Positions 52,586 to 59,516 of a stretch of DNA of 64,000 bases are shown here, one piece after another. Within the stretch, counting starts at the first letter, position 1. Every line of letters begins with the position of its first letter. A program made the position numbers and the translations under genes. The DNA comes from a bacterium. GTDB taxonomy: Bacteria; Myxococcota_A; Bradymonadia; UBA7976; UBA1532. The stretch spans positions 1 to 64,000 of the forward strand of contig JAUHYW010000018.1 in assembly GCA_030426085.1 (NCBI GenBank). The letters run 5' to 3'. The notes under the pieces were generated by a model. It was not told the DNA's origin. It made no database searches and saw nothing but the letters and a program-made list of their open reading frames with translations.

Positions 52586-55243
52586 TCAGCGGGGCTGAGG
52601 CATCGGGGCCGGCTCGGGCTGCGGATCCATGCCGCCGCCTTCGTCGGGGTCGCCGCCGCCGTCCATGCCGCCGGCGATGCCGCAGTACTCCTCGACCCAG
52701 CACTCGCCGCCGTCGGGCGGGGGGATCGGGTCGGCGCACATCTCGCCCGGCGGGCACTCGGGGGGCAGCGCCCCGCCGCCCTGGCAGACCTCGACCGCGT
52801 GCACCTCGCAGGCGGGATCGGCGCCGCAGGCCCGCACGTCGAGCATCCCGCAGTACAGCTCGACCGGCAGGCAGGCGGCGGGCGCCGGCCGGCCGACGCA
52901 CGGCTCGCACGGCTCGTTCGGCTCGCACGGCGGGCACATCACCTCACCGCCCTGGTCGAACCAGCGGCAGCTCGGGTCGGCGTCGCAGGCCTCTTCGCCG
53001 AACGCGAGGCACGGCTCGGGCATCACGCCGCCGTTCCATACGCAGCGGCCGTCGACCGGCGCGGGGCGGGGCGCGGGCTCCACCGGGTCGCCGGGATCGA
53101 CCGGCTCGGCCGGGTCGTTCGGATCACCATCGGCCGGATCCACCGGGTCACCGCCGCACTCGCAGATCTCCTGGCCGTCGGGCCCGACCCGGCAGACGCA
53201 CGGCTCGGGCATGTCCTCCATCACCCACTCGCACTCGGGGGCGTCGAAGCACATCGCCTCGTCCAGATCGGCGCAGGGATCCCCGCCGCCGCCGGCCACG
53301 CAGATCCCAGCCGGGACCAGGCAGTCGGGGCAGATCTCGTTGCCGGCCTCGTCGATGAAGCACGGCCCGCAGTCCGGATCGCGGGGCTCGTCGATCCACT
53401 CGCAGCCCGGCTGGCGGATGCACGTCGCCTCGTCGCCGATCCAGCCGCAGTCGTCCACCGGCGGGGCGTCGACGCAGAAGCCGCCGTCCACCGGGTCCTC
53501 GCAGAAGCAGATCTCTTCGCCGTTCTCGTCGACGAAGCAGCCGCACTCGCCGCCGCCGCCGGGGATCCACTCGCAGGCGGGGTCGGCCCAGCACATCCGC
53601 TCGCCGAGCAGCTCGCAGCCGCCGGGGCCGTCGTCCGAGGCGCACCACAGCTCGCACTCGCAGGGCGGGGCGATGAACTCGTCGCAGGCGCATGGCTCGC
53701 CGTTGTCGGGGCACTCGCAGTCGGGCGGGGGCATCGGCGCGCCGCCGTCGTCGCAGGCGCAGGCCTCTTCGACGTGGCACCCGGGGGTGTTGGCGCACTG
53801 GTTGGGATCGGCGATCTCTTCGCAGACCATGCCGCCCATCGGCACGCACTGCACCTCGCAGAAGCAGGGCACCGCGACCAGGCACGGGCAGGGCTCGCCC
53901 GGCGGGCACTCGCAGCCGTCGGGCGCCGGGGCCGGCTCGTCGCACTCGCAGACCTCTTCGAGGCCGCAGCCGTCGGTCGCCAGGCAGCGCTCGGGATCCT
54001 GGATGTCGAAGCAGCCGAGGCCGCCTTCGCCGGGGCCGGGCAGGCACACGGGCTCCTCGACGCACGGCGGGGCGATGCGATCGCCGTCCTGGTCGCCGCC
54101 GAAGTCCTCGCCGCCGCAGTCCATGATCCACTCGACGTGGCAGTCCGGCTCGCGCTCGCAGGCGTCGGGGTCGAGCTGGCCGCAGTTGAACGCGTCGTCG
54201 GGTACGCAGGCCGCCTCGCACTCGACGCAGTCGCACTCCGCGCCGGGCGGGCAGTTGCAGTTGTCGTCGCACGGGCCGGCCTCGGCGACGGTGCACCCGG
54301 GGGTGCGCTCGCAGGCGTCGAGCGGCACGTCGTTGCAGTCGAGCGGGCGCGGGTTGCAGACGAAGGCCTCTTCGCAGTCGTCGCAGCGCTCGGCGCCGTC
54401 GGGGCAGCGGCACTCGACCCACTCGCCGACGCAGTCGGGGCGCATCTCGCACTGCTCGGGCCCGAGCACGCCGCAGTCGCCCATCGGGCGCGCCATGCAG
54501 GCGTCCTCGGCCCACAGGCAGTCGGGCCGCATCGCGCAGTCTTCGAGGGCCAGATCGCCGCAAGCCATCTCGCCGGGGTCGACCTCGCAGCGGTTGTTGT
54601 GCCACCGGCAGTCTTCGCGGGCGTCGCACGGCCCGGGCATCGGCAGGTCTTCGCAGGCGGGCGGGCGGGGCATGCAGCCGTCTTCGGTCCACATGCAGCC
54701 GGCGTTCTCGCAGCTCCCGGGGTCGGGCTGGTCGCAGCGGGCGGGCTCGGGATCGTCGTGGCAGGCGTCGGCCCACCAATGGCAGCCGCCGCGGCGGCAC
54801 GGCTCGGCGTCGGCGTGATCGGCGCACGCCACCTCGACCGGCGAGCAGAGGTCGTCGCCCCATTCGCAGTCCTCGCGGGCGGCGCAGTCCCGATCGTCGA
54901 GCATGCCGCAGGCCACGTCGCCCAGGGGCTGGCAGTCGACGAAGTCGCCGAAGACATCCCGCCGGGCGGCGCAGTCTTCGCGGGTGGCGCAGTCGGCCTC
55001 GGCCTCGATCTCGGCGCACTCGCCGTCGACGACGCCGCCGCCCATACCGCCCATGCCGCCCATGCCCCCGGCGCCGCCCTCGCCGCCGGCGCCGCCCTCG
55101 CCGCCCATGCCTCCGGCGCCGATGCTGGCGTCGGGCCGGGGATCGGGCCCGGCGTCCGGGTCTTCACCCTGCTCGATGTCGCAGGCGGCGACGCCGCCCA
55201 CGAGCAGACAGATCGACAATATTCGAAGTGGAGCGCTGTGCAT
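52586..55243 (-). CDS. Very Cys-rich lipoprotein with repeated CxW modules
   Basis: An 885-aa protein with lipobox GVAAC and a GlyMet-rich linker (GGMGGMGGMGG). About 20 irregular modules follow with Cys pairs and an acidic core such as CxxxxDCxWxxxxC (for example CENAGCMWTEDGC and CEREPDCHVEW). A total of well over 80 Cys implies heavy disulfide bonding. GGGAGG precedes the ATG at 55243. No known domain is assigned. It is probably a rigid surface spike or matrix protein. Confidence 0.82.
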   Translation of the reverse strand: MHSAPLRILSICLLVGGVAACDIEQGEDPDAGPDPRPDASIGAGGMGGEGGAGGEGGAGGMGGMGGMGGGVVDGECAEIEAEADCATREDCAARRDVFGDFVDCQPLGDVACGMLDDRDCAAREDCEWGDDLCSPVEVACADHADAEPCRRGGCHWWADACHDDPEPARCDQPDPGSCENAGCMWTEDGCMPRPPACEDLPMPGPCDAREDCRWHNNRCEVDPGEMACGDLALEDCAMRPDCLWAEDACMARPMGDCGVLGPEQCEMRPDCVGEWVECRCPDGAERCDDCEEAFVCNPRPLDCNDVPLDACERTPGCTVAEAGPCDDNCNCPPGAECDCVECEAACVPDDAFNCGQLDPDACEREPDCHVEWIMDCGGEDFGGDQDGDRIAPPCVEEPVCLPGPGEGGLGCFDIQDPERCLATDGCGLEEVCECDEPAPAPDGCECPPGEPCPCLVAVPCFCEVQCVPMGGMVCEEIADPNQCANTPGCHVEEACACDDGGAPMPPPDCECPDNGEPCACDEFIAPPCECELWCASDDGPGGCELLGERMCWADPACEWIPGGGGECGCFVDENGEEICFCEDPVDGGFCVDAPPVDDCGWIGDEATCIRQPGCEWIDEPRDPDCGPCFIDEAGNEICPDCLVPAGICVAGGGGDPCADLDEAMCFDAPECEWVMEDMPEPCVCRVGPDGQEICECGGDPVDPADGDPNDPAEPVDPGDPVEPAPRPAPVDGRCVWNGGVMPEPCLAFGEEACDADPSCRWFDQGGEVMCPPCEPNEPCEPCVGRPAPAACLPVELYCGMLDVRACGADPACEVHAVEVCQGGGALPPECPPGEMCADPIPPPDGGECWVEEYCGIAGGMDGGGDPDEGGGMDPQPEPAPMPQPR

Positions 55244-55430: not shown

Positions 55431-57533
55431 TTATTCAGCCGCGGCGACTTTTTTCGCCGGATCGCGGCGCAGCACCGTCGGATCGCGGCGGTGCGCGGCC
55501 ACCCGGGCAAAGAAGTCGCGCAGCGCGGGCCAGTCCTCGGCCGATACGACGCCCGGGATCAGCTCGAGCCGCTCGGTCAGCGTCAGCCCGCCCTTAGGGC
55601 CTGGAAGGGAATTACTCGGACAAGCGAGGTCGCGGCCGCAGCCCGAGTAATTCGCTGACAGGCCCTTAGCCGCTCGCTCGAGGCGGTAGGTGCCGTAGGG
55701 CGACTCGATCACCGTCGGCTCGGGGCTGCGGACCACCGCCCAGCCCTCGCCCGCCGGCAGGTGCAGCCCGTTGACGAAGCCCATGGCCCCGGTCAGGACC
55801 ACCGGCCGCCGCCGGGCTTCGACCCCGGCCATCGTCAGCACCGGCTCGCCGAAGACGACGTCCAGCGGCACCGTCGCCCACCGCGCGCCGCGGGCGAAGG
55901 CGCCCCGGGAGATGAGCACGTTCTCCAGTGCGAACCGCACCGGGCCGGCGTCGGCCTCGTGCCCCGAGACGCCGATGCGGGCCGCCTCGATGCCATCGAG
56001 GAAGACCTCGCCCGCGTCTTCGGCGGCCTGCTCGGGGGGCAGCGGGTGGTCGCGCAGCCACGCCCGGACCCGGGCCGCGTCGGTGTCGTGCAGCACGACC
56101 TCGCCGGTGCGGGCGACCAGCCCCCGATCGCTCAGCTCGACGGTGTACCGCCGCTCGACCGGCGGCGCCGGATCGGCGGGCAGCGTCATCGGCTCGGCCG
56201 GGCCGGCGCCCCGGTCGAAGACCAGCGCCGGGCGCCCCCGCACGTCGGCCCCGATCTGGCCCGGGGCGCAGCCGGAGCAGCCCGGATCGAGCAGCACGCT
56301 GTCGGCGCCCTGCTTGCAACTGGCGAGCAGCCGGTCACCCGCCGCGGGGATCGGGAACTCGGGATCCACCGGCGGGGCGCCGTGGCGGCTGGTGTAGATC
56401 AGGCGGCAGTCCACCCCCCAGCTCCGCAGCGTGCCGTACAGCAGCTCGGCCCGATCGTCGGCGGTGGCCCGACGGTAGTGGGCGAGCGCCTCGAAGTCGT
56501 CCATCCGTGCCGGCAGTGGGGTCACCCCATCGGCCAGATGATCGTGGACCCGGCGCCAGGCGGCCTCGATGTGGCCTTCGCCCGGCGCGGGGTAGGTCAG
56601 CGCCTGCGGCAGCCGCGGGCGGGGGCTCAGCGCCCGGCTGTGCATCTCGCGCAGCAGATCGCCCCAGCTCCCGATCACCGGCCCCTTGCTGCCGTCGGTC
56701 ACCGTCAGCCGCAGCCCGGCCCGCCCACCCGGCGGGCGCGCGTCGCCCGGCAGCAGCGGCTCGAAGGGCAGATCACGCGCGGTCCACTCCCGCACGATCA
56801 TGTCGCCCGACTGCCCCGTCGCCATCTTCAGGCCCTGCGAGCGGTAGCGGATCTTCACCGCCTTCGGCGCCCGCATCCGATAGACCGCCTCCCGCACCGG
56901 CACGCCCTCGGGGGCCCGCCACGCGTCGACCGGCCGCCAGCCGGGCAGGCGGATCCGGTAGGCCCAGCGCACGATCGAGCCCGGCCCGGCGTGGGGGAAG
57001 GCGAACACCAGCGCCCGATCGGGCGGGGACTTGTAGTAGCGGGTCAGATCGAAGGTCTGCGTCTCCTCGACCGGGATCGTGCGCCCGTCGGCGGTCTGCG
57101 TCTCGGCGATCAGGCCGTGCAGCAGATCATAGCTGTCGAACACCAGCCGCACCTGCGCCGCGTCGGCCGCCGACCGCGTATCGAGGCGCACCGCCCGCCG
57201 GACCTCGACGACGGTGTGGGCCCCCAGCGGGTGGCCCGTGCCGAAGCTCACCGTGCGCTCGTCGACCAGGATCACGGCCGGCGCGCCCGCCTCTTCGGGG
57301 CGCACGGTCCGGGCGTCCTCGGGCAGCGGGGGCAGCGTCAACTCGCCGCCGGCCGCGTCGCGCACCGAGCGCTCGGCCAGCCGGGTCAGGTGCACGACGC
57401 GCCGCTCGTGGGTCTCGGGCCAGCCCTTGGGGTGGAAGATGTGGACCGCGCAGCCCTGGGCGACGAGGCCCGCCGCCGCGATGAGCAGCGCGCGCGCCCG
57501 GCGCCGGCCACCCGATGGGGTTCGACGGCTCAC
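55431..57533 (-). CDS. Transglutaminase-like lipoprotein lacking the catalytic Cys
   Basis: A 700-aa protein. The leader ends in a lipobox (LVAQGC). It has DUF3857-type N-terminal strands and a transglutaminase-like core, but the GDCKD nucleophile motif of its upstream neighbour is replaced by TADDRAELLY. It is therefore probably inactive. Residues near 617-643 (AKGLSANYSGCGRD and following) come from a palindromic DNA insertion. Start GTG 57533 follows GGGAGG and overlaps the neighbour stop (GTGA). The pair may form a complex in the periplasm. Confidence 0.8.
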   Translation of the reverse strand: MSRRTPSGGRRRARALLIAAAGLVAQGCAVHIFHPKGWPETHERRVVHLTRLAERSVRDAAGGELTLPPLPEDARTVRPEEAGAPAVILVDERTVSFGTGHPLGAHTVVEVRRAVRLDTRSAADAAQVRLVFDSYDLLHGLIAETQTADGRTIPVEETQTFDLTRYYKSPPDRALVFAFPHAGPGSIVRWAYRIRLPGWRPVDAWRAPEGVPVREAVYRMRAPKAVKIRYRSQGLKMATGQSGDMIVREWTARDLPFEPLLPGDARPPGGRAGLRLTVTDGSKGPVIGSWGDLLREMHSRALSPRPRLPQALTYPAPGEGHIEAAWRRVHDHLADGVTPLPARMDDFEALAHYRRATADDRAELLYGTLRSWGVDCRLIYTSRHGAPPVDPEFPIPAAGDRLLASCKQGADSVLLDPGCSGCAPGQIGADVRGRPALVFDRGAGPAEPMTLPADPAPPVERRYTVELSDRGLVARTGEVVLHDTDAARVRAWLRDHPLPPEQAAEDAGEVFLDGIEAARIGVSGHEADAGPVRFALENVLISRGAFARGARWATVPLDVVFGEPVLTMAGVEARRRPVVLTGAMGFVNGLHLPAGEGWAVVRSPEPTVIESPYGTYRLERAAKGLSANYSGCGRDLACPSNSLPGPKGGLTLTERLELIPGVVSAEDWPALRDFFARVAAHRRDPTVLRRDPAKKVAAAE
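55592..55669. repeat. Palindromic element inserted in a coding region
   Basis: Arms of 27 bp (55593-55619 and 55643-55669) match at 23 positions as an inverted repeat, separated by a 23-bp loop that holds GCGGCCGC. Both arms share AATTACTCGG and GGGCCT. CCGC flanks both sides (55588-55591 and 55670-55673), a possible target duplication. The coding frame stays open through the element, adding about 27 residues. It resembles a MITE/REP-type unit; no second copy was noticed in the window. Confidence 0.7.
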
Positions 57534-59449
57534 GACGCACCTCCCTCGGGCGCGGCCCGTACGACCATGCCCCGGCCGACCCGGGCCGCGTGCTCCATCA
57601 GCGCCCGCAGCGCCGCCAGCCCGTCGGCCTCGACCCGCGGCGTATCGATGCGCAGCTCGTGGGCCATGCGCAGGCGCCCGTCGGCGGCCTCGACCGTCCA
57701 TCGGCTCGCGCCCAGCGCGGTCTCCTCGACGCCGACGCCCGGCGACACCGCCTCGATCCCGCCGGTCCACGGCAGATCGAGCCGCACCACCCGGCTGCGG
57801 GGCTGACCCAGATCGATCGCCGAGTCCCGCTCGGCCGGCACCCGGATCTCGGCGCTGCCCCCGACGAACCGGTGCAGCGGCAGGCCCTCGACGCCCGCGT
57901 CGAGCGCGGTCCACAGCCCCGGCCAGCGGCCGTCGACCACCACCCGGGCCGCCGCGCCCTCGCCGGTGATCTCGACCGCCTCGACCACCGCCGCCGGATC
58001 GCCCTCGAAGAACGCCCCCCGGGCGATGGCCGCCCGGGCCTCGGCGTCATCGGGCGCCGCGCGCCACGGGCGGGCCGACAGCCCGGCGAAGCGGGCCTCG
58101 ACCCGCACCCGATCCCCGGCGTCGAAGGTCCAGCTCAGCTCGACGCGCTCGTCGCCCGGCGTCGCGGCCGGCAGGTCGATCAGGGCTCCGTCGTCGGCGT
58201 CGACCCGCAGCCCGGGGCGTCCGGCGACCGCCGGCAGCAGGTGCCCCGGCGCGCCCTCGCTGTCGGTGGGGTCGGCGTAGACCCAGCTCTCGCCCACCCG
58301 GACGGCGGCGATGACGTGATCGAAGGCCGACACCGTCGGCAGCTCGGGATCGAGCACCCCGTTGCCCCGAGTGCCCACCAGGACCGGCCGCACGTCGAGG
58401 TCCAGCGCCCGGCCGAGCGCGATGTACAGCGTCACCATGTCCTTGCAGTCGCCGTGGCCGCTCGCCAGGACCGCCTGCACCGCGTGGGGCTGGAAGGCGC
58501 CGATGCCCACGTGGGTCGCCACGTAGCGGATACGATCGCGCACGAAGTCGTCGACCCAGGCCAGCCGCTCGGCGGGGGCCATGCCTTCGGTGGCCGCCTT
58601 CGCCTGCGTCGCCACGGCCTCGGGCAAAGCCAGCCGCGGCGTCATCAGATCGCGGTACCAGCCGGCCACCGCGGCCCACGAGCCGGTCTCGGCCACCGAC
58701 TCGAAGCGCAGCCGCAGCCGGGCGACCTGCTCGGCGAGCGGCGGCCCATAGGGCTCCGGCTCGAAGGCGGGCACGTCGCGCCGCTCGAAGACCAGCCAGT
58801 CGCCGTCACCGTCCCGGCTCCGGGTCGGCTCGAACGCCTCGACCCGCCCCCGGCGCACGAAGCTCCACCGGGCCGGGGCGTCGGACCGCTCGGCGACCAT
58901 CAGCCGGCTGCGGACCACCGGGATCTCCCACTCGAAGACCCAGTCGGGCAGCGCGAAGAGCCGCTTCGAGAAGACGCGGTACCGGTAGTCGACGATGTCG
59001 CCCACGTCGACCCCGGGCACCGTCGCCTGCGCGAAGCGGCCGTCGGCGAACAGGACCCCGGCGCCGGGGCGGGCCGGCGCGCTCGACATGGCGGCGGGCG
59101 GCAGCCGCTCGAGGTCGTGGGTAGAGGGTCCGAAGCTGTAGCCTTCGAGCGCGGTGAGGGTCGAGAAGCCGTCCAGCGGCACCGCGATGTCGGCCCGGGC
59201 CCGGCCGCGGGGGGTGAGCACCTTCAGCCGGACGTGGCGCTCGAAGACGTAGCCCCGCTCGCGCCCGTCGGAGTAGCTCAGGCGGCCTTCGTCGAGCAGG
59301 ACGACGGCGTCGGCGTGGGGGTGCGCGGCCCGGTCGATCGGATCGTAGGTGTAGTCGACCGCCCCGCCACACCCGGCGAGCGGCGGGCCGAGCAGGCCGA
59401 GCAGGGCCAGCAGAGGCAGCCGGTGGGCTGCGGCGAAGGGTCGGCTCAT
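57530..59449 (-). CDS. DUF3857 transglutaminase-like lipoprotein (active-type)
   Basis: A 639-aa protein with lipobox PLAGC (C27). An N-terminal DUF3857 beta domain spans ~30-260, and a transglutaminase-like domain contains GHGDCKDMV (C335), AFDHVIAAV and YADPTDSEG: the complete Cys-His-Asp triad. It thus should act as a periplasmic protease or transamidase. GGAGG precedes the ATG at 59449. It is followed by the inactive-looking paralogue with overlap. Confidence 0.88.
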   Translation of the reverse strand: MSRPFAAAHRLPLLALLGLLGPPLAGCGGAVDYTYDPIDRAAHPHADAVVLLDEGRLSYSDGRERGYVFERHVRLKVLTPRGRARADIAVPLDGFSTLTALEGYSFGPSTHDLERLPPAAMSSAPARPGAGVLFADGRFAQATVPGVDVGDIVDYRYRVFSKRLFALPDWVFEWEIPVVRSRLMVAERSDAPARWSFVRRGRVEAFEPTRSRDGDGDWLVFERRDVPAFEPEPYGPPLAEQVARLRLRFESVAETGSWAAVAGWYRDLMTPRLALPEAVATQAKAATEGMAPAERLAWVDDFVRDRIRYVATHVGIGAFQPHAVQAVLASGHGDCKDMVTLYIALGRALDLDVRPVLVGTRGNGVLDPELPTVSAFDHVIAAVRVGESWVYADPTDSEGAPGHLLPAVAGRPGLRVDADDGALIDLPAATPGDERVELSWTFDAGDRVRVEARFAGLSARPWRAAPDDAEARAAIARGAFFEGDPAAVVEAVEITGEGAAARVVVDGRWPGLWTALDAGVEGLPLHRFVGGSAEIRVPAERDSAIDLGQPRSRVVRLDLPWTGGIEAVSPGVGVEETALGASRWTVEAADGRLRMAHELRIDTPRVEADGLAALRALMEHAARVGRGMVVRAAPEGGAS

Positions 59450-59516
59450 GACGATGCCTCCAGGTGTATTCGTGCGATCACTGCACACCGGCGGACGCAT
59501 CTTTTCGCCACCGCTG

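Follow-up and report, generated by a model that had tools for sequence, protein, structure and literature searches.

The window, by which we mean the whole 64,000-nucleotide stretch of bacterial DNA analyzed here, contains a DUF3857 gene lengthened in frame by a short palindromic segment, and we conclude that this segment is very probably a non-autonomous MITE that inserted in frame, was trimmed to its paired ends and is tolerated by the protein. Under this explanation the MITE would have inserted at TTA (TAA on the coding strand, across an Ala-Lys codon pair) with duplication of 3 bp, through a transposase supplied in trans whose most likely family is IS5 (IS1031-like). A deletion of 165 bp between two CGAGG repeats would then have left the paired ends only, and the remaining stop-free 72 bp would leave the C-terminus of the protein in place and add 24 residues close to it, where the corresponding connection in homologues is short. 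The copies, their ends, the duplication, the deletion, the open frame and the lack of the segment in homologues are shown directly; the transposase family, this sequence of events and the continued function of the lengthened protein are inferred.

Table 1. Features of the element and its host gene in the window
Feature	Position	Strand	Basis
MITE-like element with internal deletion, 69 bp core	55597..55665	-	69/69 identity to C71 ends; in frame in host gene
Left terminal inverted repeat GGGCCTGGAAGGGAATTACTCGG	55597..55619	+	
Right terminal inverted repeat GGGCCTGTCAGCGAATTACTCGG (minus-strand reading)	55643..55665	-	
Target-site duplication TTA, left copy	55594..55596	none	
Target-site duplication TTA, right copy	55666..55668	none	
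CGAGG micro-repeat holding the junction of the 165-bp internal deletion	55625..55629	none	C71 alignment
Host ORF, DUF3857 protein, +24 residues near C-terminus	55431..57914	-	Pfam DUF3857
Neighboring paralogue, DUF3857 + transglutaminase core, without insert	57530..59500	-	Pfam; alignment

A preliminary description of this DNA had reported an imperfect hairpin of 78 bp that added about 27 residues to the gene and was possibly flanked by a CCGC duplication. The hairpin itself is real: its 27-nt inverted arms (55593-55619 and 55643-55669) are 85% complementary, and the fold, at about -43 kcal/mol (z about -6.5), was not equaled in stability by any of 200 shuffles. Its limits had to be redrawn, since the family alignment puts the element ends just inside TTA; the core is 69 bp long, and CCGC was rejected as the target duplication in favor of TTA. 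The frame is preserved as had been described, and the net insert of element plus 3-bp duplication comes to 72 bp, or 24 codons. None of the Rfam covariance models matched in four loci at the gathering threshold, and we rejected a structured RNA identity on that basis.

Searches for more copies, which the preliminary description had proposed for a suspected mobile-like element, found them in the element's own genome (G000, 10.1 Mb) and in a genome of the same genus (G001). With the hairpin as query, the whole of G000 gave many matches to one or both halves, the halves lying mostly well apart, and about two dozen places were recovered when the query was a full copy. The total for G000 is about 27 family sites, which, like all copy numbers here, is a lower bound, with a limited number of candidates scored per genome. 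The elements are multi-copy, measure 54-237 bp and are too short to encode a transposase; at full length they span 232-237 bp, and by the family alignment the short forms of 176-180 bp lack an internal module of about 57 bp that is rich in GC. The 23-bp ends were retrieved by pattern on both strands, where control patterns gave about 0-1, and they define at least four subfamilies: GGGCCTGGAAG.../GGGCCTGTCAG..., GGCTCCGGAAGG.../GGCTCCGTCAGG..., GGGCCCGGCAAGAAACAACTCGG, and a GGGGCCGGAAGG type, found in the copies at C34 and C124. Four of the five copies examined in G001 have GGGCTTGG-type ends, and the copy at L056 has a diverged GGGGCTGG end. No whole copy was found in 36 other genomes of the family, order and class, two of which have short internal matches only, and an exact pattern of 30-odd bases gave 0 matches under a strict test against named genomes and viral contigs. 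As far as searched, the repeat family is limited to this genus, and it was apparently undescribed before.

The elements have a mostly open frame on the minus strand, which we set aside as evidence of a coding role because the copies share descent and because, at about 73% GC, a 78-codon frame would by our own estimate be stop-free by chance roughly a quarter of the time. A long open frame is thus not unusual, and we do not claim that the element itself codes for anything. The GC-rich module of about 57 bp (GGGGGCCAAGCCC..GGGGCGTAGGCCCGG..; L004:1412-1468 within the full-length elements) also occurs on its own at many places in both genomes of the genus, including loci L036-L041 (C26, C178, C34, C91, C7 and C38 of G000), and where it lies within the element varies with the subfamily, two positions being seen, so that one repeat is nested inside another.

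Judged from sequence, the element is mobile and the hairpin is a mobile-element insertion. Identical 3-bp flanks border 13 of the 24 two-ended copies, where random positions would agree at about 4% each and about 1 would be expected; when the flanks were re-paired, 20,000 shuffles gave a mean of 2.4 matches and a maximum of 9. Agreement over 4 bp was seen in 0/24 copies, and the duplication is imperfect or absent in 11/24. The motif TNA makes up the left flank in 15/24 copies and the right flank in 15/24, against a background of 1.7%. Additionally, two empty sites were found in the sister genome G001: for the C139 copy the flanks are the same there but enclose one TAA in place of the element (CTGTGCTAA|CCCCGA), and for the C87 copy the empty site is an uninterrupted gene.

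The window copy is 69/69 identical to both ends of the 234-bp copy at C71 in G000, relative to which it lacks 165 bp between two CGAGG repeats; any position in the micro-repeat of Table 1 can serve as the junction, since every breakpoint there preserves the 69/69 match. A full element of the C71 type in the host frame would occupy 234 + 3 = 237 bp, or 79 stop-free codons, so an open frame did not depend on the deletion, whose effect was to cut the potential insert from 79 to 24 residues. It is quite possible, if not the course we favor, that the deletion came first and the element had already been shortened to 69 bp when it transposed into the gene, with no trimming in place. This would fit a copy whose two ends have survived between perfect TTA repeats, and a second bare hairpin of 54 bp, at C171:33480-33533 in G000 (L067:2481-2534), shows that such trimmed forms arise elsewhere. 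However, the particular deletion of the window copy is common to no other copy found, and with the full element also open in frame, shortness was not needed for tolerance. Insertion followed by deletion in place could be part of a wider pattern in which the family repeatedly trims to the bare hairpin, the deletion here having made a 79-codon insert into a tolerated segment of 24 residues; we put this forward tentatively and regard it as somewhat unlikely. If it is true, the gene captures a stage at which a transposon is being turned into new protein sequence. The 54-bp hairpin lies a little upstream of an apparent ATG start.

The host gene had been described as transglutaminase-like. Pfam does give DUF3857 in the host protein, but it finds the transglutaminase core only in the neighboring paralogue, with which the host protein shares 27% identity in an alignment of about 430 columns (E 1e-10). 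The ORF translation contains LVAQGC, a lipobox-like sequence; the host protein is a probable lipoprotein, and the true start of the gene probably lies downstream of the first GTG of the ORF. The preliminary description had named orthologues that all carry the segment as the finding that would speak against an insertion, and the comparison turned out otherwise: the alignment runs through the insert site and has a 23-column gap there in all four proteins compared, namely the DUF3857 homologues L071 (from G047), L072 (G045) and L073 (G053), which are distant and only 21-25% identical overall to the host protein, and the paralogue in the window. Taking out the element with one TTA (72 bp) gives ...YRLERAAKGGLTLTERLEL..., which is collinear with the homologous C-termini, and the insert-free host sequence ...SPYGTYRLERAAKGGLTLTERLELIPG... 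matches up with ...SPFGEMRVDYQSVDGELLVDIRYSFAV... of L072. No close orthologue of the host gene was found in 12 genomes of the same genus and family, nor one that gives its empty site at base level, and a wider search returned only distant homologues; a protein scan of genome contigs and a PDB sequence search, made in the same hunt, gave no match. An AlphaFold run without an alignment reached a mean pLDDT of 34 and was discarded. Adjoining the host gene is an 885-residue ORF (window 52586-55243, minus strand) whose product is very cysteine-rich and has no Pfam match.

Three further explanations can be set against a trimmed, tolerated insertion. The lack of an orthologue in those 12 genomes means that the family as a whole can do without the gene, and its product could already have been non-functional or dispensable, in which case the tolerance would be only apparent. 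We consider this unlikely, given that the ORF is intact, that codon usage is of the coding type on both sides of the insert and that the homologous C-terminus is preserved. If the element were a palindromic repeat of the REP/REPIN type, with a RAYT (TnpA_REP) transposase to spread it, that would account for the strong hairpin, the mostly intergenic copies and their number of tens per genome; this identity is nevertheless highly improbable, because terminal inverted repeats of 23 bp, a 3-bp TNA duplication and empty sites are not REP features. Finally, a segment that had long belonged to the protein, its palindrome a coincidence, would also be in frame in a gene that is still open. The C71 copy, whose ends match the segment at 69/69 positions, already refutes this; the TTA duplication and the absence of the segment in 4/4 homologues also count against it, and we give it next to no credence.

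We think it likely that the MITE was mobilized in trans by an IS5 family transposase of the IS1031 type, a suggestion made because of the TNA targets and the GGGCCTGTC-like ends. Within the IS5 family, the IS1031 subgroup prefers TNA and makes exclusively 3-bp repeats, and one of its elements has ends GAACCTGTC... (PMC12016507). ISLrh (GAACCTGTCTAG...; PMC12016507) has ends of the G..CCTGTC type, like the family ends GGGCCTGTCAG... The present family shares with IS1031 a 3-bp TNA target duplication, whereas its end sequences differ beyond the CCTGTC core. Searches with PF01609 and PF13586, together with end scans of the draft assemblies G000 and G001, were negative for a transposase with matching ends: the DDE_Tnp_1 genes, three of them in G000 and one in G001, are all without family ends, and the DDE_Tnp_1_2 search gave no match. 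Both drafts may lack such a gene; the G000 assembly is broken into 178 contigs, with two copies at their ends (C150 and C160), so a multi-copy IS could be absent from it. We describe the family as working like an IS1031-type system and do not file it as a member of the IS5 family. Tourist-like MITEs and PIF-Harbinger elements likewise make 3-bp TWA/TNA duplications but have eukaryotic hosts and serve as a working analogy only; the eukaryotic PHIS superfamily, which uses TWA/TNA, has been linked to IS5 (PMC4482050).

In-frame fusions of MITEs with genes are best known from the Rickettsia palindromic elements (RPEs) and are also on record for ERIC, Yersinia and Neisseria elements (PMC10969869, PMC2229807). 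The likeness to RPEs drawn in the preliminary description holds as an analogy, and its statement that such insertions are rare elsewhere is somewhat overstated in view of the ERIC, Yersinia and Neisseria fusions (PMC2229807, PMC10969869). RPEs are likewise small and palindromic and can lie in frame in protein genes; the one RPE protein reported as tested, a guanylate kinase, was an active enzyme with changed affinity (PMC2229807). However, RPEs are often in frame in genes (nearly half of 44; PMC10969869), compared with 1/24 copies here, and their target-site duplication is given as unresolved (PMC2229807), while that of the present family is clear. Membership among the RPEs was rejected on this difference in insertion habit. 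ERIC, YPAL/RU-2 and Correia/NEMIS are likewise small stem-loop MITEs, mostly intergenic and sometimes fused in frame to genes (PMC2229807), but they have other hosts and other ends, several with TA termini and not a 3-bp TNA duplication.

By codon-usage gene calls, the other copies of the present family are mostly intergenic. In five of them (L005 at C95, L012 at C92, and L047, L052 and L056 of G001) the duplication is the stop codon of an adjacent gene; a TTA, TGA or TAA duplication at such a place means that insertion doubles the stop and the gene is spared. These harmless sites would be favored by TNA targeting in GC-rich DNA. The full-length C87 copy (L011:1739-1972) lies out of frame inside an endonuclease dU (PF01949) gene, whose interrupted product ends ten residues beyond the element and which is intact in G001 (L077), and the copies at C109 and C95:8780 may lie in former genes, where the coding signal is weaker. 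The window copy alone, 1/24 examined, adds residues to an otherwise intact protein. A full-length copy that breaks a gene and a trimmed copy that does not would together allow a direct test of how a transposon fragment can become protein sequence. Events of this kind are known, and as far as searched the family and so clean an example are new. Outside Rickettsia, this is a well-documented instance of a protein that has gained a peptide from a transposon, and it brings into view the target duplication and the deletion as well as the nearest sister copy and the protein in its form without the insert. As a separate observation, the flanks of the C92 copy (L012) match G001 at C94:135332 and C94:58643, about 77 kb apart, suggesting a rearrangement at or near that element.
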